DNA of 34,979 bases, taken from positions 1 to 34,979 of IMG/VR virus record IMGVR_UViG_3300005542_000016; one strand, 5' to 3'. This DNA is from a virus. A program made the position numbers and the translations under genes. Positions 18,960 to 34,573 of the stretch are shown piece by piece; position 1 is the first letter of the stretch, and each line of letters opens with the position of its first letter. The notes beneath the pieces were generated by a model. The model made no database searches and was not told the origin of the DNA. It saw only the letters and a list, made by a program, of their open reading frames with translations.

Positions 18960-19140
18960 CCTTCATCGGCTGCAATATCGCGGGTTTGGAAGCCTCGGCT
19001 TTGACCGGCAGCCCCTTGTCGTCCAACTCCTCGGCATGTTTGGTCGCCGGATGATCTTCGTCGAGCAGATGGACCGAACCCGGCTTCGCCACCGTGCCTC
19101 CGATCTCATGCGCTTCGGTCAGTCGATAATGCTTCTTCAT
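18787..19140 (-). CDS. Small protein with overrunning C-terminus (117 aa)
   Basis: The ATG overlaps the TGA of the upstream gene (ATGA). The first ~60 residues, starting 'MKKHYRLTEAHEIGGTVAKP', look like a genuine small folded phage protein. The last ~57 residues are Pro/Gly/Arg-rich, and in that part the third codon positions become AT-rich while the overlapping 80-aa gene keeps coding statistics. The reading frame therefore seems to have lost its original stop near 18960 and run on into the next gene. The function is unknown. The N-terminal half resembles small proteins placed near head-completion genes. Confidence 0.5.
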   Translation of the reverse strand: MKKHYRLTEAHEIGGTVAKPGSVHLLDEDHPATKHAEELDDKGLPVKAEASKPAILQPMKDDNVRPASGRLDPSSTPAPARAGKPDEHDLPPASGGPGNRISGAGGTGRVEEPGRKP

Positions 19141-19490
19141 CCTGTCCTCTCGCGCATCTCCTCGCCGTAAGATTCATCTTCCATCTCGGTCGCCTCGTTC
19201 TCGACGGCAAGATTGGTGATAACCAGCTCGATCCGGCAAGTGCGACCATTCTCGCCGGCATTGATCGAAACGCTGGTCACCCTCGCAAACGCGCGCAGGT
19301 CGATCATGTCGCCGACTTCGCAATCGTCGTCGAGTTCCAGCTTTTCAAGGATCTCCTGATCGAAACACAGGCACAGCCCGGAGGGATAGTCGCCGACGCA
19401 ATCGATCGGATCAAAGCCCTCTGGCGGGGCAATGATTTCCTCTTTTTCCTCGCGAGTGCGCCGCATATCGACCATCGAAGACCACGCCAT
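19137..19490 (-). CDS. Conserved head-associated protein, capsid-staple-like (117 aa)
   Basis: The ATG at 19490 overlaps the preceding TGA (TGATG). The protein reads 'MVDMRRTREEKEE', then 'YPSGLCLCFDQEILEKLEL' and 'VGDMIDLRAFARVTSVSIN'. I recognise this combination as a small protein found beside structural genes in many podo- and siphoviruses and sometimes named capsid staple. The C-terminal beta strand 'CRIELVITNLAVE' completes it. It probably binds the capsid surface. The name is from memory of the family; the structural role here is inferred. Confidence 0.55.
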   Translation of the reverse strand: MAWSSMVDMRRTREEKEEIIAPPEGFDPIDCVGDYPSGLCLCFDQEILEKLELDDDCEVGDMIDLRAFARVTSVSINAGENGRTCRIELVITNLAVENEATEMEDESYGEEMRERTG

Positions 19491-20077
19491 CAAGCCGCCT
19501 CCCGCTCCGTACGGCCGCCTTCGCGCACATCCTCGCTCTCGCCGCGGCTCATCTCGCCCTCACCGGGCGTCTCGTGGCCCTCGTGCCTGGCGTGCATCTG
19601 CATGCGCTCGTGCTCGTGCCTGACTCGCATCTGATGATGATCGGTGTGGTGGCGATCGTGCATCTGGTGCGTCTCGTGCTCCTGGCGCCGATGCAGATGC
19701 ACCAAATCCCCTTCAGCGGCCGCCTGATGCTCGCGTTCGTGGCGGTCTTCCATCTGCCGGTGCTCTTTGCGATGCCCCATATGCTGCTCGCGCCGCTCGT
19801 TCTCATGCCGGGCCGACATTTCCATACGCTCGCGCGCCTTCTCGTCACCGCCCTCATGCTCTTCGGCGCGTTCCTCGCTGGGATTGTCGTTCTTTTCGGT
19901 ACGTTCCTCGCGTGCCTCGCTCCCGGGATTGCCGCGCTCGCGCGCCTCACGGCGGGGCGACTCGCCCTCGCTGCGGTCGCGCCGCGAAGTCGGCCCGCTG
20001 TCGCTGCGCTCGGGCTCGGAAGATCCGGGATTATCGCCGTATCGGGTACGGGCACGGTCGCGGGAACTCTCGGCCAT
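19490..20077 (-). CDS. Disordered His/Glu/Arg-rich protein (195 aa)
   Basis: The gene begins immediately after the TAG of its upstream neighbour and overlaps the next gene as TGATG, so its frame fits the operon. The sequence is almost entirely charged. The N-terminal part is Ser/Arg/Glu-rich with a 'RTRYGDNPGSS' segment, and residues ~90-170 are packed with His, Met, Glu and Arg, for example 'HETHQMHDRHHTDHHQMRV'. No hydrophobic core is visible. Such His-rich tracts can bind transition metals, and the charge mix could bind DNA or coat a capsid. A long plus-strand frame lies opposite but is a complement artefact. No family is recognised. Confidence 0.6.
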   Translation of the reverse strand: MAESSRDRARTRYGDNPGSSEPERSDSGPTSRRDRSEGESPRREARERGNPGSEAREERTEKNDNPSEERAEEHEGGDEKARERMEMSARHENERREQHMGHRKEHRQMEDRHEREHQAAAEGDLVHLHRRQEHETHQMHDRHHTDHHQMRVRHEHERMQMHARHEGHETPGEGEMSRGESEDVREGGRTEREAA

Positions 20078-20308
20078 CTATCGACCTTTCGGCTTACGAG
20101 GATTGGAATAGCGCTTCTCGGCGCGCGAGCCGCCGTGATGCATGCCTTGCAAGGTCAACGCCAGCCGCGCGCGCTTGCCGGTCGTACCGCTATCGTGCTG
20201 ATGCTCGCGGGCAAATTCCATCGGGCTCTCGCCGGCACGCTTCGCCTGCGCGGTGAGACTTCCGGGATTCTTGATCGCCCCCTTGATCCATTTCTTCTTG
20301 CCCGCCAT
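20078..20308 (-). CDS. Small basic phage protein of the 'WIKGAIKNPGSL' type (76 aa)
   Basis: The start at 20308 is supported by GAGGAG a few bases upstream. A second in-frame ATG at 20329, formed from the RYG codons of the upstream gene, is possible. The motif 'KKWIKGAIKNPGSLTAQAKR' followed by 'EFAREHQHDSGTTGKRARLA' and 'LTLQGM' belongs to a small protein type seen in many phage structural regions, with no known function. The C-terminus 'SRAEKRYSNPRKPKGR' shares the seven-residue SRAEKRY with the HiPIP-like protein two genes upstream, encoded by different codons. Confidence 0.65.
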   Translation of the reverse strand: MAGKKKWIKGAIKNPGSLTAQAKRAGESPMEFAREHQHDSGTTGKRARLALTLQGMHHGGSRAEKRYSNPRKPKGR

Positions 20309-20312
20309 CCCA

Positions 20313-20546
20313 TTACTCCTCGTCGCCATATCGATCAGGGACAGGGTCGCCATATCGCACCAGCCTCTTCAGTCGCGCAGCATGTTCGCGTTCGTCGGCG
20401 CGATTGTGCTCGAACGCCTCCTTGGCCGCAGGTGACTTTGCCGCCGCAGCCCGCTTGCCGTAGTCGCGTACCGCCTTGCGCTCCTCAGCGAGCGACTTCC
20501 TGATCATCGCCTGCGTGCCGCCGTAGCGGCGGTCAGCCGCTGCCAT
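20313..20546 (-). CDS. Encapsulated-ferritin-like (EncFtn-type) mini protein (77 aa)
   Basis: The product is a two-helix, half-ferritin-sized protein. Helix 1 carries 'LAEERKAVRDYGKR' (19-32) and helix 2 'HNRADEREHAARL' (47-59). As I recall the Rhodospirillum EncFtn protein, these align without gaps: E22, E52 and H55 fall on the ferroxidase ligands Glu32, Glu62 and His65, and Y29 on Tyr39. The entry-site Glu34 is Lys24 and Trp38 is Asp28, so these differ. The protein is shorter than EncFtn and lacks its C-terminal encapsulin-targeting tail. It has instead RYG motifs at both ends (residues 7-9 and 72-74). The start overlaps the end of the HiPIP-like gene. Iron oxidation or storage inside the phage head is an inference; other ferritin-like or rubrerythrin-like families are possible. 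Confidence 0.6.
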   Translation of the reverse strand: MAAADRRYGGTQAMIRKSLAEERKAVRDYGKRAAAAKSPAAKEAFEHNRADEREHAARLKRLVRYGDPVPDRYGDEE

Positions 20547-20721
20547 AGCGTTTCTCCGCCCGGCTCATCGCCCGAAACCTGTTGCACCAATCCTCCGGCT
20601 CGATCCTGCCGGCGACAACCTCGCAATCGTGCGGCCGCTCGAAATGGCGGCAAATGCCACAATGGTTGGGTCCAGAGGCGGGATGCTCATAATCGACCGA
20701 GGCCTTAGTCGCCTTCGCCAT
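20533..20721 (-). CDS. HiPIP-like four-cysteine protein (62 aa)
   Basis: The ATG at 20721 lies within the upstream gene's last codons. Four Cys residues occur at 21, 24, 33 and 46 in 'HCGICRHF', 'HDCEVVAGRI' and 'EDWCNRF'. The pattern C-x2-C ... C-x3-A/P-G-x-I ... W-C resembles the iron-sulfur cluster site of high-potential iron-sulfur proteins (PF01355) in shortened form. It may hold a 4Fe-4S cluster or a zinc ion. The C-terminus 'SRAEKRYGSG' contains the recurrent RYG peptide. It is flanked by other very small genes of the late operon and directly followed by the EncFtn-like gene. Cluster type is unproven. Confidence 0.55.
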   Translation of the reverse strand: MAKATKASVDYEHPASGPNHCGICRHFERPHDCEVVAGRIEPEDWCNRFRAMSRAEKRYGSG

Positions 20722-20893
20722 ACCGCCGCGCCGATCGAGATTTGTTGGCATGCTTGTTCGCCGTGGCGATAGCTTCGCCCTCGGGAACCCGGGCGTTGAT
20801 CATCGCCGTCGCCTGCTTTGCCGCCTTCCCGGCCTCGGCAGTCGAGAGCTTCTTATCATGGCGTTCTTTGTACTGGCGGGCCGTCCACGGCAT
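20705..20893 (-). CDS. Small Lys/Ala-rich helical protein (62 aa)
   Basis: The ATG forms TGATG with one of the two candidate stops of the O-antigen-ligase gene. The protein 'YKERHDKKLSTAEAGKAAKQ' plus 'ARVPEGEAIATANKHANK' belongs to a type of small helical protein common in bacterial and phage genomes, without known role. It ends 'SRSARRYGEGD', another copy of the RYG-type end found in its neighbours. The last codons overlap the start of the HiPIP-like gene by 17 bases. Confidence 0.6.
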   Translation of the reverse strand: MPWTARQYKERHDKKLSTAEAGKAAKQATAMINARVPEGEAIATANKHANKSRSARRYGEGD

Positions 20894-21098
20894 CAGGCTT
20901 CTCCAGATCCGCCAATTCCCGCTTCAACAATGCCACATAGCGGCGCAGATGCGGGTCGAACGGGTAAACCGAAACCGCCCGATCGGCTATCTTCTCGATC
21001 TCTCCTTGTGAAAACGGCCGGCCAAAAATCCCATCGATCCGCCACTCGGCGAGGCTCGAGCTTGCCGCGAAGACGCAGCCCATTACGAGCCAGCCGGC
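20856..21098 (-). CDS. Probable C-terminal part of the O-antigen-ligase-like protein in the +1 frame
   Basis: From about 21098 this frame reads 'RAGWLVMGCVFAASSSLAEW', a last membrane helix, followed by 'EIEKIADRAVSVYPFDPHLR' and 'RYVALLKRELADLEK', a soluble helical end. Third codon positions are GC-rich here and not in the frame that continues the ligase. It has no convincing independent start; the ATG at 21083 lacks a Shine-Dalgarno sequence and would lie about 190 bases inside the ligase gene. I read it as the true end of the ligase, joined by a +1 shift within GCGAGCCGGCTGG. A separate nested gene is the alternative. Confidence 0.5.
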   Translation of the reverse strand, partial: AGWLVMGCVFAASSSLAEWRIDGIFGRPFSQGEIEKIADRAVSVYPFDPHLRRYVALLKRELADLEKPDAVDGPPVQRTP

Positions 21099-22062
21099 TC
21101 GCCAGCACCGCAAACACAAACCCCGATGCAGGGAGTTCGAGCGGAAACGAGAAGACGGCGCAGACGAGTGCTGCGGCAAGCGCACCATTTGTTGCCCCAT
21201 CCGAGGCTGGCGTCACGCGTACCCATCGCCGCCATAGCATCGCGCAAATGCCGGCCGCCAGCAGCAACGGAACGGCGCCGATTTCGACCGCCGCCTGCAA
21301 AAGATCGCTGTGCGCGTATTCCCAACGCGGATAGGTCGCGCCAAACCACCCCAAGCCATGCCCGAAAGGTGCGATCGAGAGTGCGGCAGCCTGCCAGATT
21401 TCGATGCGGTCGAGGGCGGTAGTGAACTTTTCCGGGCCGAACAGCAGGATGCTCGCCGTCGCAAAGATCCCGGCCAGCACCGCACCTAAAAACTTTGTCA
21501 TCGGCGGTGCGCGCCACACCACCAGAAGACCGACCAGAACGGCGAAAAGGGCGACGCGCGACTGGCACAACAACAGGGGGACAGACAGGACCGGAGCCAA
21601 GAACCAGTCACGGCGCGCCGCCGCCCATAGAAACACCGGGGCGGCGGTTTCGGCCAGCACGTCGCGATTGAAAAACAATCCGGCCGGCACCGAGAATTGC
21701 GGAATTGCCCCCCAGCCCAGCATCTGCGGCACTACCAGAGCCGCCGAAACGGCAAGACCGGCGGCAATCCAGGTCATAACCACATCAATCGAGGCAAGCT
21801 GCGCTGCCGCAAGAACAGCGAGCGCCAGGATGACGAGGTGAAAGAGCTGGTTGGCGCCCCCGAGCGGGTCGGAAGACCAAACGAGAGTTAGGCCGGCATA
21901 TCCGAGAAGAGCGATCGAAGAGCAGAAAAGCGGGATGCCGACCGCGCGCGGATCAAGCCGCGACACAAGCGGGATGCCGAGCGCGAGCAAAGCCCAGCGC
22001 GGCATCTCCGCATTGATCGTCGGCCAGAAGGCGAGCATTACGAGACATCCGAGAGCAGGCAA
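20893..22062 (-). CDS. O-antigen ligase/polymerase-like membrane protein (Wzy_C family), frame interrupted near its end
   Basis: The polytopic protein has about nine or ten hydrophobic segments. The family signature is present: 'LDRIEIWQAAALSI' , 'PFGHGLGWFGATYP' and then 'YAHSDLLQAAVEIG', which match the R-x-x-x-W, P-x-G-x-G and H-x-x-L-x-x-x-x-E-x-G elements of PF04932. The start may be TTG at 22062 or ATG at 22038. After 'GFVFAVLASRLA' (about 21095) this frame turns Arg-rich with poor codon statistics, while coding quality continues in the +1 frame to 20856. A frameshift is therefore likely. Phages use such enzymes to change host surface polysaccharide. Finding one between capsid and tail genes is unusual. 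Confidence 0.65.
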   Translation of the reverse strand: MPALGCLVMLAFWPTINAEMPRWALLALGIPLVSRLDPRAVGIPLFCSSIALLGYAGLTLVWSSDPLGGANQLFHLVILALAVLAAAQLASIDVVMTWIAAGLAVSAALVVPQMLGWGAIPQFSVPAGLFFNRDVLAETAAPVFLWAAARRDWFLAPVLSVPLLLCQSRVALFAVLVGLLVVWRAPPMTKFLGAVLAGIFATASILLFGPEKFTTALDRIEIWQAAALSIAPFGHGLGWFGATYPRWEYAHSDLLQAAVEIGAVPLLLAAGICAMLWRRWVRVTPASDGATNGALAAALVCAVFSFPLELPASGFVFAVLASRLARNGLRLRGKLEPRRVADRWDFWPAVFTRRDREDSRSGGFGLPVRPASAPLCGIVEAGIGGSGEA

Positions 22063-23537: not shown

Positions 23538-24095
23538 TCACGCGACGATGTAATTCGCGGCATAAGCGGCTGCCGCCCAGTCGTCGCGAGCCAAGACGAT
23601 CGCCGCCGCCACCGCACCTGCCGAGAAGGTGCTGGTGCCGACGACATAATTGAGCCGGATAAAGCGCGGCATTGCCGCAAGAATGGCGCGATGCGGCCAC
23701 GCAAACCCGATTTTGCCGTATTCCGGCGCTGTCGTCGTCAAGGTCAATTGCGCCACCGTCAGCGCGTCGGTCTCGATATAGGTCGTATAGCCGGCCGCCG
23801 TGTTGCTGCCGCTATCGATCGAGCCCTGGAACTGCACCTGCATCGTGGCCCCACCCGCCGACACGAAGGATGAGGTGATCCACACGCCGACGCGGGGGAT
23901 GTTGACGCCGTCGCCAATACCGAGATCCTCGCCAAAGACGCTGGCGTTCCCGATTCGGTTCAGCGGCGCACTGCCAACGCCGGCCCCCGTCAAATCGATG
24001 ACGTTGGTCGATGCGGCAGTCGAGGTGATCGCCTGCCCGGTTGCCGGCGATGCGCCGGGATTCCCCGAGAAAACGAGGTTTTGGTCCATAATCAT
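23538..24095 (-). CDS. Capsid cement/decoration protein, Bbp16-like (185 aa)
   Basis: The gene lies directly downstream of the major capsid gene. The pattern 'STNVIDLTGAG', 'GEDLGIGDGVNIPRVGVWI', 'GGATMQVQFQGSIDSG' and 'MPRFIRLNYVVGTSTFSAG' is the jelly-roll-like cement family represented by Bordetella phage BPP-1 Bbp16. The C-terminus ends 'ARDDWAAAAYAANYIVA'. Start at the first ATG with AGAGG nine bases upstream; a second ATG follows two codons later. It probably binds the outside of the capsid and stabilises it. Confidence 0.78.
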   Translation of the reverse strand: MIMDQNLVFSGNPGASPATGQAITSTAASTNVIDLTGAGVGSAPLNRIGNASVFGEDLGIGDGVNIPRVGVWITSSFVSAGGATMQVQFQGSIDSGSNTAAGYTTYIETDALTVAQLTLTTTAPEYGKIGFAWPHRAILAAMPRFIRLNYVVGTSTFSAGAVAAAIVLARDDWAAAAYAANYIVA

Positions 24096-24108: not shown

Positions 24109-25158
24109 TCAGGTCACGCGGGTCTCGGTATTGAGCAAAACATCGCAAACGCGGATCGGAATGCCGCGGAAGCTGGTCACCGGCTCGCCCGCGTAGTCGC
24201 GCGGCCCGAGCAGCACGTTGCGATCACGGATGGCCTGAATGTCCATGTATTCGCGCCCGGTACGGTTGACGTAAATCGCCGGACGGATACCGGGTGCGGG
24301 CTCATCCGGGGCATCGGTCTTGACGATGCCGGATTGGTTGCGCGCCATTTTCGGCAGGCGGACCACCGCCTTCGAGAGCAGCGCAAAGAGGTCGGGCGCA
24401 TTCGAGCCGCCAAGGCCGGCAGAGGTCGTGTCGAGGTTGGCAATCCGCACGACATAACGCCAGTCGCGCACGCATAGCCCGGCCTCGTGCCGGAACCATG
24501 ACGTGTAGGCTTCGAAGCGGTTGCCGCTCGAATCGTAGCCGGGAACGATATCGCCCTTGTCCTCAAAGACTATGCCGGCCTTGGACCCCTTCGGAAACAA
24601 CCCGAAACAGGTTTCCTCGCCCCAGCCGATAAGCCAAAGCGAGGTATTGGAACTGCCGGTCCCGCCGCCGTCGAGGACGTTCTGCGCGTTCTGGGCGTTC
24701 GAGGATGTGACCGTATTGAAAAGCGGGGCAAAACCGGTAAATTGCGACGGACTGACGGTCGAATTCCCGTAGAAAATCGTCGTCGCCATCTGCTGCGAGA
24801 GGCCTTCCAAAAAGGCGTTGTCCTCGCTGTAGCGGAATTTCGCGACGTTGCCCGACATCTCGGCAAGCTTGCGATCAATCTGGCTGTAAGCTTCGAGCAT
24901 GCCGGTGCCGACGGTAACCTGCGCAGTCGTCGATTTGCCGTAGGGGACGCCCTGATAGAGCAATCGCCAGGTGCCGGAAGGGAGCGAGGTGCGCAGGGTC
25001 GTCTTGTGACCCGTCGGCAGGATGCCCTCGATCCAGATCATGTCGTCGTAAATTTCGTTCGCCTGAGAGAGCATCTCGGCGATGTCGTCGATCTGGCCCT
25101 GCGGGTCCATGCGCCGCGCCCAGTCGGCAAGCGTCAGGTACTGTGCGTTAGTGGGCAT
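24109..25158 (-). CDS. Major capsid protein, HK97 fold, GP7/BPP-1 type (349 aa)
   Basis: The sequence begins 'YLTLADWARRMDPQGQIDDI' and continues 'WIEGILPTGHKTTLRTSLP'. Later it has 'SYLG'-type regions such as 'FLEGLSQQMATTIFYGN', and ends 'GIPIRVCDVLLNTETRV'. This is the GP7-type major capsid protein typical of BPP-1-like podoviruses; its length of about 350 residues is normal. It follows the scaffold gene with an 11-base overlap and precedes the cement gene, the expected head order. The 'SFRGIPIRVCDVLL' end is a hallmark strand of the family. Confidence 0.9.
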   Translation of the reverse strand: MPTNAQYLTLADWARRMDPQGQIDDIAEMLSQANEIYDDMIWIEGILPTGHKTTLRTSLPSGTWRLLYQGVPYGKSTTAQVTVGTGMLEAYSQIDRKLAEMSGNVAKFRYSEDNAFLEGLSQQMATTIFYGNSTVSPSQFTGFAPLFNTVTSSNAQNAQNVLDGGGTGSSNTSLWLIGWGEETCFGLFPKGSKAGIVFEDKGDIVPGYDSSGNRFEAYTSWFRHEAGLCVRDWRYVVRIANLDTTSAGLGGSNAPDLFALLSKAVVRLPKMARNQSGIVKTDAPDEPAPGIRPAIYVNRTGREYMDIQAIRDRNVLLGPRDYAGEPVTSFRGIPIRVCDVLLNTETRVT

Positions 25159-25981
25159 TGCCGTTCATTCCTTGGGTGTTGATGTAGCGGCGCTCGATAC
25201 GCGAGCCGGACTGAGCGCCCGAAATCTGAGGCTGTACACCGTTGACGGGCGGCTGGACGGGGCGCGGCCTGCCTTCCGACAACGCCGCACCGATATTCGA
25301 CAGAAAGCGAATGAAGGCAGGATGATCGCCCATCCCGGTATAGTTCAGGGCATCAAGCAGTTCCTGGCGCTGCTGTTGCGCGCGGGCAGGCGGCACGCCT
25401 GGAATACTGGCAAAACGATCGCGTACCGCAGCGCACAACCGCAAGGTCGTGTCGCGCCGGTTGCCGCCGATGTCGGGATCACTCTCGAAATTCTCGCGCC
25501 AGTTCTCGCGAGTGCGATCGAACGCCTGCTGCTGATGCTGCGTCATGCGCTCGCGCAGCTCGGTCAGGTTGGCGATGTAAAGATCGAGCAGCGCCTGGCC
25601 GCGCTCCTGCGGCGTCATCTCGGGATTGCCGAGAATGCCGGTAAAGGATTCCATCCCGGCGGCGTCAATTTCGACACCATTGGGTAGAGTAAACGGCTCA
25701 AATGCGATCGGAGCAGGAGCTGGGGCCTCTCCCGCGTCGCCGCTTTCAGGCGCTGCCTCACTGACCAGCGATGGCTTTGGCCCCTCGACTGCGGGCGCCT
25801 CGGTAGCCGCCGCTTCTACCGGGGCCTCGGCCGCAACAGGCGCCGCCGGTTCGGCTGGCGTCGGCTCAACCACCGCTACAGGAGGTGGAGCTGCAGGAGC
25901 CGGCGCCGTCACCTCCGCCGGAGCCGACGCAGGCGGAGGAGCCTCGGCGGCAACCGTTACCGGGGCCGTTTCTTCAGCCAT
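25148..25981 (-). CDS. Capsid scaffold protein (277 aa)
   Basis: The protein is acidic and has a long Ala/Pro/Glu-rich disordered first half (for example 'VEPTPAEPAAPVAAEAPVE'). A helical second half contains 'TPQERGQALLDLYIANLTEL' and 'HQQQAFDRTRENWRENFESD', and the C-terminus is basic with 'RIERRYINTQGMNGNAH'. This layout, and the place just before the major capsid gene, are typical of podovirus scaffolding proteins. The start ATG lies within the last codons of the Bbp19-like gene. A protease function is not visible. Confidence 0.8.
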   Translation of the reverse strand: MAEETAPVTVAAEAPPPASAPAEVTAPAPAAPPPVAVVEPTPAEPAAPVAAEAPVEAAATEAPAVEGPKPSLVSEAAPESGDAGEAPAPAPIAFEPFTLPNGVEIDAAGMESFTGILGNPEMTPQERGQALLDLYIANLTELRERMTQHQQQAFDRTRENWRENFESDPDIGGNRRDTTLRLCAAVRDRFASIPGVPPARAQQQRQELLDALNYTGMGDHPAFIRFLSNIGAALSEGRPRPVQPPVNGVQPQISGAQSGSRIERRYINTQGMNGNAH

Positions 25982-31261: not shown

Positions 31262-31866
31262 GGGAGAATCCAACGTCCCAGCCCCAGATAGCCGTTCGGA
31301 ATGATCACCCCGCCGCCATCGTCCGGGCGTGCGTCGGTGGTACTCCAGACATAAGTGACAGGCGGCTTGTCCCCCGGCTCATAGTACCCCAGCACCATCA
31401 CCGGCATCGGCCCCGGAGGAGCCGGCAATGCCCGCAAAGTCGCAATATTCGGCACCCAGCCGAGATTGACCAGCCCGAGCAGCCCGAAGCCCTGCAGTTT
31501 GTAGCGGTGGCCAAGGAGGTCGACGACGCAGGTCAGGCCATTATCGGGCGATGTCGTATCGGTCGGATCCCACTCCCAGAACCCGGCCCCCACCCCGATC
31601 GGCGTACCCCCGACCCCGGTGCCGAACACACCGCCGGTACCGGTGCCGAATACCCCGCCTTCGCCGCTGCCGAACACGCCAGAAGGCGCTATCGAGGGAT
31701 CGAATTGCGGGTCGTAGTAGGCCTCGACGTAGAACACCCGCGTTACGGTCTTGCTGTAATAATACTGGAAAAAGGTCTGGTTGGTGCGCAGCGCATCGAG
31801 CGAGGGCAGAATCGGGATGATCAGCTCGTCCTGCAGCGAGCCGTTGAGGTTGCGCAGGCCGCTCAT
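31258..31866 (-). CDS. Spike-base / tail adaptor protein (202 aa)
   Basis: The gene is coupled to the portal by ATGA. The N-terminal half ('LQDELIIPILPSLDALRTNQ') leads into 'YYDPQFDPSIAPSGVFGSG' and a repeated G-V-F-G-T-G-x-G-G tract nearly identical in style to the insertion in tail tubular protein A. The C-terminal part 'VLGYYEPGDKPPVTYVW', 'DDGGGVIIP' and 'GRWIL' is the small domain that in many phages directly precedes the beta helix of a tailspike in the same chain. The protein therefore looks like the virion-attached base of the spike, with the helix encoded separately downstream. Confidence 0.65.
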   Translation of the reverse strand: MSGLRNLNGSLQDELIIPILPSLDALRTNQTFFQYYYSKTVTRVFYVEAYYDPQFDPSIAPSGVFGSGEGGVFGTGTGGVFGTGVGGTPIGVGAGFWEWDPTDTTSPDNGLTCVVDLLGHRYKLQGFGLLGLVNLGWVPNIATLRALPAPPGPMPVMVLGYYEPGDKPPVTYVWSTTDARPDDGGGVIIPNGYLGLGRWILP

Positions 31867-33728
31867 CGCGGCGCTCCGGGCGCCGGCCCGGGAGCTGCCG
31901 GGCCGGCGCCGCCGCCACCGGTGCCCAGCACCTGGTCGAGTGCGGTGTTGCCGCCGCCGACCGGCGTCTGGCTCAAGGTCTGGGCGCCCTGGATCGCCGC
32001 ACCCGCGGCTGCCGTCAACGCCTGCTGCTGCTGCGCCTGCGCCCGGTTGGCGCGCAACTTCCGCACCTCTTCAGGTGAATTGAGAATGTCCACCGGCACG
32101 TTGAGCAGGCTCGCATAGTGCCGCCCGGTTCGGTCGGGGTTGATCAGATCACGCGCTTCCGGGTAGACCGCCCCGAGATTGCCGCCGATCGTCGCCACAA
32201 ACCGCTCGATCGAACCCGTCGCAGCCGCCCGCTGCGCCATCGCCATCTCGGAAATGTAATCGATCTGCAGCGGCAGCCGCGCCAAACTCTCCGGCATCGG
32301 CGGAAACATCCCGCGGCGCCGCATGATCTCGAAAATCCGCACTACCGCAGGCGAGCCGCCCTCGCTCTGAAACGCCTCGATGACCGGCCCCAGCACCTGA
32401 ATCTTCTCGCCCTTGCGCTCGTAAATCTCCAACTCGTTGCGCGGCTGAATCCCTTCCATCTGACTGATCATCAGAAAGATGTCGGTGAAAAAGGCGCGAT
32501 TGATCCGGTCCTGGCACTCCTTGATGTCGGCCAGCATCCCGGCCAGATCAGGCGCCACCTCGTAGATCGGCCGCATCCCTTTCCCGGCATCGACCTGGCT
32601 CACATAGGTAATATGCCCCGGCAGGATCGAAGACGGCTGGTTCTTCAACTCGGCATGCGCCAGGAGCGGCGGGCGCACCTGCTTCTCGATCGCCTCGGCC
32701 TTGCGCTTCTGCTCGGTCTGCAACTGCATGATGTCGGGCAGCGCGTCCATCCCCGGCGAACGCCCATAAGCGTCGTTCGAAACCGTCTGCCAGCGCGCCG
32801 CGATAAACGGCCTCTCATAAAACCCGCGCTTCGACAGGGGCCGCTCGTTCTGCTGCCCCCAAACCCAGTACACCTCGCGCCAGGTGTATTCCTCTCCCAC
32901 CAGACGCACGCTCGATCCCGGATAGCGCCCGCGGATCGCAAAATTGGGCTCGATCGCGTGCGCAATCACCCGCTCGGTTTCGAGTGCGGCACCCTTCGTC
33001 GCCCACAGCTGCTGAATGTCGGCCGGGCAATTCTCGACCCCGAACATGTCGATAATCTGGGCCACCGTGAGAGTGAATTGCCGGTAAAGCGTATTATCTT
33101 CAAATTGCGACGAAGCGCCCAAATAATACTCGCCGGCGCACGGATTATACCCGCGCACTACATTTTCTTCGTCCTCGTAAAAGATGATGACGCCAGTGCC
33201 GAAGACAGTCATGTCCTCGAACATCTGACCCATGCACTTATAAAAATTCGACTCTGCCATCACCGCATACATGCGGTTTTCAACTTCCTCCAGCCACGCC
33301 GCAGCCTCGGCGTCGATCTCCAGGTTGCGGTCGATCCCGGCCTTCAGCTTGAACCAGGGATGTGTGGCGCTGCACAACCCCGAGGTCATCCCCGAAGCGC
33401 AGGTGCGCATCGCCAAGGTGCCGGTCGAGTCCACGATCTCCTGGTTGATCGGAAACCCGCGCACCATCGTATTCGCGGTGATCAGCCAATGGTAACGCCG
33501 CGGCAGGATGAACCTTGCCAGAAGCGACCAATGCTCCCACCACGACAAACGCCAGTTGCGCAGCATCGCCAACCGCGCTTCGAGATGCGTCCAGAGATCT
33601 CCCCAATCGGGATCGTAGAAATGCTCAATGTCGGGAGGACTTGCCGGCTGTGCGGCAAGCAGCGTCGGCGACGACCGCTCGTAATGCGGCGCCTCCTCGA
33701 CCAGCGCCAGCGCCGTCGAGCGCGCCAC
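31863..33728 (-). CDS. Portal protein, head-to-tail connector (621 aa)
   Basis: This is the Head-tail_con family (PF12236) of podoviruses. 'WWEHWSLLARFILPRRYHWL', 'CASGMTSGLCSATHPWFKLK' and 'VFGTGVIIFYEDEENVVRGY' are family hallmarks, as is 'SNDAYGRSPGMDALPDIMQL' near residue 330. The C-terminus is Gln/Ala then Gly/Pro-rich, as usual. The start is GTG 33728, with a weak GGGG upstream; there is no earlier start in frame. It forms the dodecameric ring through which DNA passes. A 111-base gap upstream separates it from the GapR-like gene; I see no confident promoter or terminator in that gap. Confidence 0.9.
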   Translation of the reverse strand: MARSTALALVEEAPHYERSSPTLLAAQPASPPDIEHFYDPDWGDLWTHLEARLAMLRNWRLSWWEHWSLLARFILPRRYHWLITANTMVRGFPINQEIVDSTGTLAMRTCASGMTSGLCSATHPWFKLKAGIDRNLEIDAEAAAWLEEVENRMYAVMAESNFYKCMGQMFEDMTVFGTGVIIFYEDEENVVRGYNPCAGEYYLGASSQFEDNTLYRQFTLTVAQIIDMFGVENCPADIQQLWATKGAALETERVIAHAIEPNFAIRGRYPGSSVRLVGEEYTWREVYWVWGQQNERPLSKRGFYERPFIAARWQTVSNDAYGRSPGMDALPDIMQLQTEQKRKAEAIEKQVRPPLLAHAELKNQPSSILPGHITYVSQVDAGKGMRPIYEVAPDLAGMLADIKECQDRINRAFFTDIFLMISQMEGIQPRNELEIYERKGEKIQVLGPVIEAFQSEGGSPAVVRIFEIMRRRGMFPPMPESLARLPLQIDYISEMAMAQRAAATGSIERFVATIGGNLGAVYPEARDLINPDRTGRHYASLLNVPVDILNSPEEVRKLRANRAQAQQQQALTAAAGAAIQGAQTLSQTPVGGGNTALDQVLGTGGGGAGPAAPGPAPGAPR

Positions 33729-33839: not shown

Positions 33840-34298
33840 TCAGGCCTGCGCCGTCGCAACATCCTCTTTCGGGCTGCGCCCGGCACGCTCGTTCCAGCCC
33901 GCCATCCAGCCCTGCTGCCACTCCTCACGCTCCACAGTCGTTGGCACATAGGGGTTGCTCGACGCCGGATCGCCATTCATCGCCGCTCGATGCCCGGCAT
34001 CATATTCCAGGCGGGCGGACGGCTTGCGCTTCTTCGGAAGCTTCATCCGCAGCATCGCCGCCTCACCCAAGGGCGTGTCGGCCAGCATCCCAAGCTCTCG
34101 CCGGTAGCCGTCCATGGCCGCCTCTTCTGCAGCCACCGTGTCCACATCCCGCTTGCGCTCGCGGATCAGCCGGCGCAGCAGCTTCGGGTCGAAGCCGTAG
34201 GCCTTCGCCTCGATGTAAACTTCCTTGATGTCTTCGACGATCCCGGCCCGATCGCCCTCCAACAGCTCGATGCGATCGACGATCGCTTTCAGATCCAT
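33840..34298 (-). CDS. GapR-like (DUF2312) DNA-binding protein with an RMF-like C-terminus (152 aa)
   Basis: Residues ~4-75 ('IVDRIELLEGDRAGIVEDIK', 'EVYIEAKAYGFDPKLLRRLI', 'RERKRDVDTVAAEEAAMDGY') match the GapR/DUF2312 family of alphaproteobacteria, which binds overtwisted DNA as a coiled-coil clamp. After a Lys/Arg linker ('LPKKRKPSARLEYD') comes 'GHRAAMNGDPASSNPYV' and 'EEWQQGWMAGWNE', the layout of ribosome modulation factor-like domains (G-x-x-A-x-x-G, NPY/CPY, W-x-x-G-W). The ATG overlaps the upstream stop (TGATG); a GTG just before it is possible. A role in host chromosome or translation takeover is plausible. The GapR part is recognised firmly, the RMF part less so. Confidence 0.72.
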   Translation of the reverse strand: MDLKAIVDRIELLEGDRAGIVEDIKEVYIEAKAYGFDPKLLRRLIRERKRDVDTVAAEEAAMDGYRRELGMLADTPLGEAAMLRMKLPKKRKPSARLEYDAGHRAAMNGDPASSNPYVPTTVEREEWQQGWMAGWNERAGRSPKEDVATAQA

Positions 34299-34573
34299 CA
34301 CCGCCCCCTAAACTCTTCGGCATGAGCCGAACAATAGGGACGGCTGCCGATGAATACGGTCGGCCGTTCCTGACAATCCCCACGCGCACAAATAAGCTGC
34401 ATCGACGATGGTGTGTACCTGAAGCCACCTATAACACCTTTGGACGGCCTATCTTTACTTATCGCATCTACAGACAGTGGCGGACGCGCCATCTTCGCCA
34501 GATATTCGCCTATTTTACTCAACTTCTCGTCAATTCCGCGCAAAACCATCAGGATTTCGTCGGTTTTGTCCAT
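34298..34573 (-). CDS. Small protein with Cys/His metal-binding motif (91 aa)
   Basis: The ATG at 34573 follows the upstream stop by one base and has GGGAGGA upstream. An N-terminal helix 'TDEILMVLRGIDEKLSKIGE' looks like a short coiled coil. The C-terminal part has 'LICARGDCQERPTVFIGSRP' and 'YCSAHAEEF', giving C-x4-C and C-x2-H pairs suited to one zinc ion, in the style of a treble-clef or zinc ribbon. No family is recognised. It is coupled to the GapR-like gene downstream by TGATG. Confidence 0.6.
   Translation of the reverse strand: MDKTDEILMVLRGIDEKLSKIGEYLAKMARPPLSVDAISKDRPSKGVIGGFRYTPSSMQLICARGDCQERPTVFIGSRPYCSAHAEEFRGR

Follow-up and report, generated by a model that had tools for sequence, protein, structure and literature searches.

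A two-helix EncFtn-family protein with a scaffold-type terminal tag in the head operon of an epsilon15/BPP-1-type phage

Results

The window analyzed here, an IMG/VR record of 34979 bases taken as a whole, carries a minus-strand head operon in which the gene types run portal, candidate scaffold, capsid, Bbp16-type cement, small ORFs, Gp10-like protein and tail proteins. The portal or head-tail connector (31863-33728, minus) was identified by PF12236 (426 bits); just upstream of its gene, positions 33840-34301 encode a fusion of a GapR-like DNA-binding domain and a ribosome modulation factor domain (PF10073, PF04957). The candidate scaffold (25148-25981, minus), a member of the phrog_458 or epsilon15 gp6 family, is encoded directly upstream of the capsid gene and ends in the C-terminal tail SRIERRYINTQGMNGNAH (SRIERRY). 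We infer the scaffold role of this family from its composition and its position just before the capsid gene; databases label the family a protease, and the candidate scaffold lacks a Pfam protease domain. The major capsid protein (24109-25158, minus) has the HK97 fold and is of the epsilon15 gp7 or BPP-1 Bbp17 type (PF20911, 396 bits; NF045672), and it is followed by a Bbp16-type cement protein (23538-24095, minus; PF21190, 43 bits). Between the cement gene and the small ORFs lies a 389-aa membrane protein (20893-22062) that resembles O-antigen ligases (Wzy_C, 24.5 bits, below the cut-off). A search of GTDB contigs with the capsid protein yielded no prophage relatives.

Within the small-ORF group, 3.6 kb downstream of the capsid gene and in the same operon, much as the original prediction had placed it (about 4 kb), an ORF at 20313-20546 (minus) encodes a 77-aa protein that we call mini-EncFtn. 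Its ATG at 20546 is preceded by a GGAG Shine-Dalgarno sequence about 7 nt 5′, read by eye, and its codon-position GC matches that of the adjoining genes. The ORF belongs to the EncFtn family. Pfam PF22277 scored 35.2 bits against a curated cut-off of 27, which places the protein among the EncFtn-like proteins rather than in an unrelated helical family, while the full-length cut-offs of the NCBIfam models for encapsulin-cargo EncFtns were not reached (TIGR04535, 47.7 versus 125 bits; NF058679, 48.1 versus 90 bits). Sequence matches in the PDB were 3k6c (NE0167, E 2e-6), the EncB entries 7s5k and 7s5c, 5n5f and 5da5. The gap-free alignment to the EncFtn core claimed earlier was recovered, with residues 18-67 falling on residues 28-77 of Rru_A0973. 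Because this alignment is ungapped, the proposed ferroxidase ligands E22, E52 and H55 correspond to Rru E32, E62 and H65, and Y29 to Y39; all four are invariant in the EncFtn family alignment that includes mini-EncFtn. The entry-site E34 of EncFtn is replaced by K24, and overall identity to EncFtns is about 30-44%.

AlphaFold models mini-EncFtn as a helical hairpin with a core pLDDT of about 95 and disordered ends. When this model was compared with the PDB using Foldseek, the best 50 matches were all EncFtn, EncB or EncC (E 0.02-0.2, probability 1.00); the E-values are weak because the hairpin is small, and the argument lies in all 50 of the best matches being EncFtn relatives. The two-helix core spans approximately residues 12-65, and the protein stops where helix 2 ends, about 10 residues past the core, without helix 3. 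No encapsulin-type targeting tail could be read at its C-terminus, which agrees with the original prediction. Since EncB 7s5k comprises 68 residues and ten chains in its PDB entry, helix 3 seems dispensable for core assembly. Close homologues of the 77-aa protein were absent from annotated phages, IMG/VR and GTDB contigs, and the other related phage records searched contained no EncFtn, with or without a scaffold tag. Tagged mini-EncFtn is confined to the window phage and, on the data at hand, is a single acquisition. A literature search on phage ferritins in heads returned nothing relevant.

The N-terminus of mini-EncFtn, MAAADRRYGG (20517-20546, minus), resembles the tail of the candidate scaffold and lies outside the EncFtn-homologous region, as alignments to EncFtns in the PDB start at residue 13 or later. 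Scored against SRIERRY it reaches 30, a value attained by 1 other non-scaffold 18-mer among the 1240 in the window and by 4 of 5000 shuffles; the tag itself (DRRYG) is short and N-terminal. Its Tyr codon is TAC and therefore involves no start-codon overlap. A possible second tag near the C-terminus (DRYGDEE, 20316-20336, minus), weak and found by direct reading, was rejected, as its score against the scaffold tail did not exceed background.

Mini-EncFtn is flanked by two tagged genes, and two more lie close by. Its 5′ neighbor (20533-20721, minus) encodes a 62-aa PioC-like HiPIP with a Cx2Cx8Cx12C motif and the C-terminal tag SRAEKRYG. NF041615 gave 51 bits, under its cut-off of 100, and the AlphaFold model was uninformative (pLDDT 44); the family profile nonetheless matched PioC of Rhodopseudomonas palustris (6xyv) with an E-value of 1.2e-15, and the cysteines of the four-Cys HiPIP pattern are invariant in the family alignment. 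The family occupies six loci and is tagged in five; the orthologues at L021, L028, L055 and L058 bear WY-type tags, as do their own scaffolds. Further upstream, an MPW-type small basic ORF (20705-20893, minus) ends in SRSARRYGEGD and belongs to a family of 11 loci in which the tag covaries with the genome's own scaffold. On the other side of mini-EncFtn, a KKKWIKGA-type small basic ORF (phrog_20603; 20078-20308, minus) ends in SRAEKRYS, and a His/Glu/Met heptad-repeat protein (19490-20077, minus) begins with RDRARTRYG, found by direct reading. The latter repeats RHExxHxxM heptads and, being rich in His, Glu and Met, is possibly metal-binding; its family occurs in about 28 related loci, mostly tagged at the N-terminus, and these tags vary in step with the scaffold. 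The Gp10-like protein (19137-19493, minus; PF21628, 40.3 bits), a relative of epsilon15 gp10, has no clear tag in the window phage. At 20546 and 20721, mini-EncFtn and the HiPIP start at an ATG contained in the TATGGC that codes for YG in the tag of the preceding gene, such that tag and translational coupling share bases.

Across about 80 related phages, the tags of small proteins covary with each genome's scaffold tail (RYG, WYD/WYG, LYG/LYP or MYD). Nearly all candidate scaffolds at the capsid-related loci end in a Tyr-containing tail, and six unrelated small protein families bear their own genome's version of it, at the C-terminus or just past the start Met. At L056, where the scaffold ends in GSRMYDHPSS, two proteins carry KSRMYDHPSS and a third SRMYDHASS; at L064, KTQKLYGK is accompanied by KQEKLYGK and RKKKLYGK, and at L016, TMYGG by SKMYSS. 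Isolated phages show the same pairing, with ARRLYAAS on the scaffold and AQRLYGAS on a small protein of BPP-1, SAAEVLYG and SAAETLYG in phiV10, and SAFYPKK in epsilon15, whose gp10 ends in DAFYPDGEDD. A clear terminal tag is missing from about one-fifth of family members, including the Gp10-like protein of the window phage. At L079:5087-5547, two more small ORFs bear the tag of their own scaffold (KSAAETIYPKQ and SPAHKLYPNQ); they lie some 2.7 kb upstream of the capsid gene, and tagged cargo is therefore not limited to one place in the operon.

When each family contributed a single member per 65%-identity capsid cluster, tag and scaffold tail agreed in the class of the residue preceding Tyr in 31 of 34 cases, compared with 12.8 ± 4.0 by permutation (p < 1e-4). 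The C-terminal 18-mers of 82 family members reached a score of 22.4 when compared with the scaffold tail of the same genome, and 15.85 ± 0.63 after permutation of the genomes (0/10000). Such permutations leave some shared ancestry in the tag statistics. Scores of at least 20 were obtained for 55% of C-termini and 3% of interior segments. Searching with each genome's own tail core retrieved 45 ORFs, 26 of them in the six families; reversed cores retrieved 6 (1 in the families), shuffled cores 9-17 (0-4), interior cores 8 (0) and another genome's tail core 10-19 (1-6). Synonymous codons differ between tag copies, as in the SRAEKRY of the KKKW-type ORF and of the HiPIP, and likewise among the three proteins with SRMYDHPSS at L056, which indicates selection at the peptide level. 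Recent DNA-level copying of gene ends was rejected on the strength of these differences.

A link to the virion comes from epsilon15, in which gp10 was detected by proteomics of infectious virions, and re-modelled surface density was fitted better by a 130-aa protein than by gp10 (PMC9207676). The length and Bbp16 match of this 130-aa protein are those of gp8. With the density assigned to the 130-aa protein, gp10 is left as a virion component to which no location is assigned, and it is tagged like its scaffold. A 2025 paper still takes gp10 as a staple (PMC12391199), and the head proteins identified in a 3.5 Å study of the BPP-1 head are Bbp17 and Bbp16 alone, which are also the two proteins most abundant in the virion (PMC3863775). 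Both epsilon15 gp10 (L042, 7705-8040) and BPP-1 Bbp20 (L040, 5752-6081) end in their own scaffold's tail. Their tails suggest that Gp10-like proteins may be internal, tag-loaded virion proteins rather than capsid staples.

Discussion

Given that scaffold and cargo lack homology, the tail that they share calls for an explanation in its own right, and its covariation with the scaffold is most readily accounted for by a single docking site in the procapsid that they have in common. Most likely, the tag mimics the scaffold to bring about encapsidation, and a set of iron-redox cargo proteins is loaded into the procapsid through it; we infer the loading and the ferroxidase activity. Judged from its sequence and setting, mini-EncFtn is probably a two-helix EncFtn-type ferroxidase that enters the head during procapsid assembly. 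The original prediction had proposed such loading, and it gains from the candidate scaffold's tag on mini-EncFtn and its neighbors, although the signal appears to be a scaffold-mimicking N-terminal tag and not an encapsulin-type tail. What is added is a possible route into the head, suggested by this tag.

The docking site of the scaffold tail would be either the inner face of the capsid shell or the core of the scaffold, and a protein bearing a copy of the tail would therefore be co-assembled as cargo. Mini-EncFtn would then assemble into a ring, its Fe site lying at the interface of a dimer. It would oxidize Fe(II) within the particle or right after ejection, and the PioC-like HiPIP that shares the tag could be its electron partner. 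Less Fenton damage to phage DNA could be the outcome, or iron taken from the host; a packaged ferroxidase and Fe-S carrier would keep Fe(II) off the DNA or handle iron on entry.

Several other explanations were weighed. The tagged proteins might enter the procapsid as co-scaffolds or assembly factors and exit before or during DNA packaging, in which case mini-EncFtn would act in assembly only. The tag is, after all, a scaffold tail, and the scaffolds of many tailed phages exit before DNA fills the head. The naming of just Bbp17 and Bbp16 as head proteins in BPP-1 (PMC3863775) also fits, but epsilon15 gp10 is reported from infectious virions (PMC9207676), and we consider this explanation unlikely, if the strongest of the competitors.

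Auxiliary genes occur inside the structural operons of phages, and mini-EncFtn might likewise be an auxiliary metabolic protein of ferritin-like type, unpackaged and acting on iron in the cytoplasm during infection, its RRYG being coincidental. Such a coincidence is easier to accept for a short N-terminal tag, and a second phage EncFtn, from a T4-like contig (L123), has no such tag. Against it stand the rarity of the N-terminal score in the window (1 other non-scaffold 18-mer among 1240), the position of the gene between two tagged genes with two more beside them, and the N-terminal tags usual in the nearby His/Glu family, which together leave this account quite improbable.

Less credible again is an EncFtn fold retained merely as a structural hairpin without ferroxidase function. 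The loss of helix 3 and the replacement of entry-site E34 by Lys would suit it, but, with overall identity at about 30-44%, Y29 and all three ferroxidase ligands have been conserved, and the co-tagged neighbor is a PioC-like Fe-S protein. Finally, that RYG is an overlapping start codon and ribosome-binding site (CGC TAT GGC) read in another frame, as the next gene's ATG within TATGGC at 20546 and 20721 might imply, has virtually no standing, being refuted by the shift of the motif to WY, LY and MY in step with the scaffold, by the many copies that use TAC, by N-terminal copies and by the KKKW-type copy, which no following start overlaps.

The scaffold-mimicking tag can be set beside known loading systems. 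Encapsulin-EncFtn (EncB/EncC) systems likewise combine an EncFtn-type ferroxidase core and an HK97-fold shell gene in one operon. Encapsulin cargo carries a short terminal localization sequence (PMC8791618), and the window phage also uses a short terminal peptide, with a putative cargo role. In contrast to an encapsulin, the shell here is a true phage capsid with a portal and a cement protein, the address peptide copies the candidate scaffold's tail and is N-terminal on mini-EncFtn, and mini-EncFtn is without helix 3 and the encapsulin tail.

Among known principles, the capsid targeting sequence of T4 and the DarB signal of P1 come closest. In T4, the targeting sequence is N-terminal. Diverse internal proteins of T4 are packed by means of this short terminal sequence (PMC3012670), and the packaging signal of DarB is N-terminal as well (PMC9024508). 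As in T4, several head-operon proteins here have a short terminal sequence in common, a sharing read from their sequences. Unlike in T4 and P1, the tag is usually C-terminal, it copies and covaries with the candidate scaffold's tail, and the capsid lineage is that of epsilon15 and BPP-1. The co-tagged HiPIP has the Cx2Cx8Cx12C core of PioC and Iro but differs in being encoded in phage head operons, with no export signal seen and with a scaffold-type tag. Epsilon15 gp10 and BPP-1 Bbp20 (PF21628) are tagged proteins of the same operon type from isolated phages, with gp10 present in virions; the mini-EncFtn fold is unrelated to theirs, and the window phage's own Gp10-like copy has no clear tag.

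A broader reading is plausible, if tentative: epsilon15/BPP-1-type phages may possess a general cargo code, in which varied small proteins receive copies of a genome-specific scaffold-tail address. Some of these phages may fill the head with mini-EncFtn and a PioC-like HiPIP, and their virions would then function as the viral equivalent of an iron encapsulin. The covarying tag would provide a simple rule to predict which uncharacterized phage proteins are packaged, testable at once in BPP-1 and epsilon15, and it suggests why gp10 belongs to the virion yet is absent from the shell. Encapsulins are thought to descend from phage capsids, and an EncFtn that bears the address tag of a phage scaffold would be the sort of intermediate expected on this view, or a convergent case.

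The EncFtn of the T4-like contig (L123:5698-6066), which also encodes a baseplate hub and a DnaB helicase, is a second, independent phage EncFtn. It is 123 aa long (100 bits), lacks a scaffold-type tag and has an HNRDEEIEHAA core, and its gene follows those of two long, similar-looking proteins.
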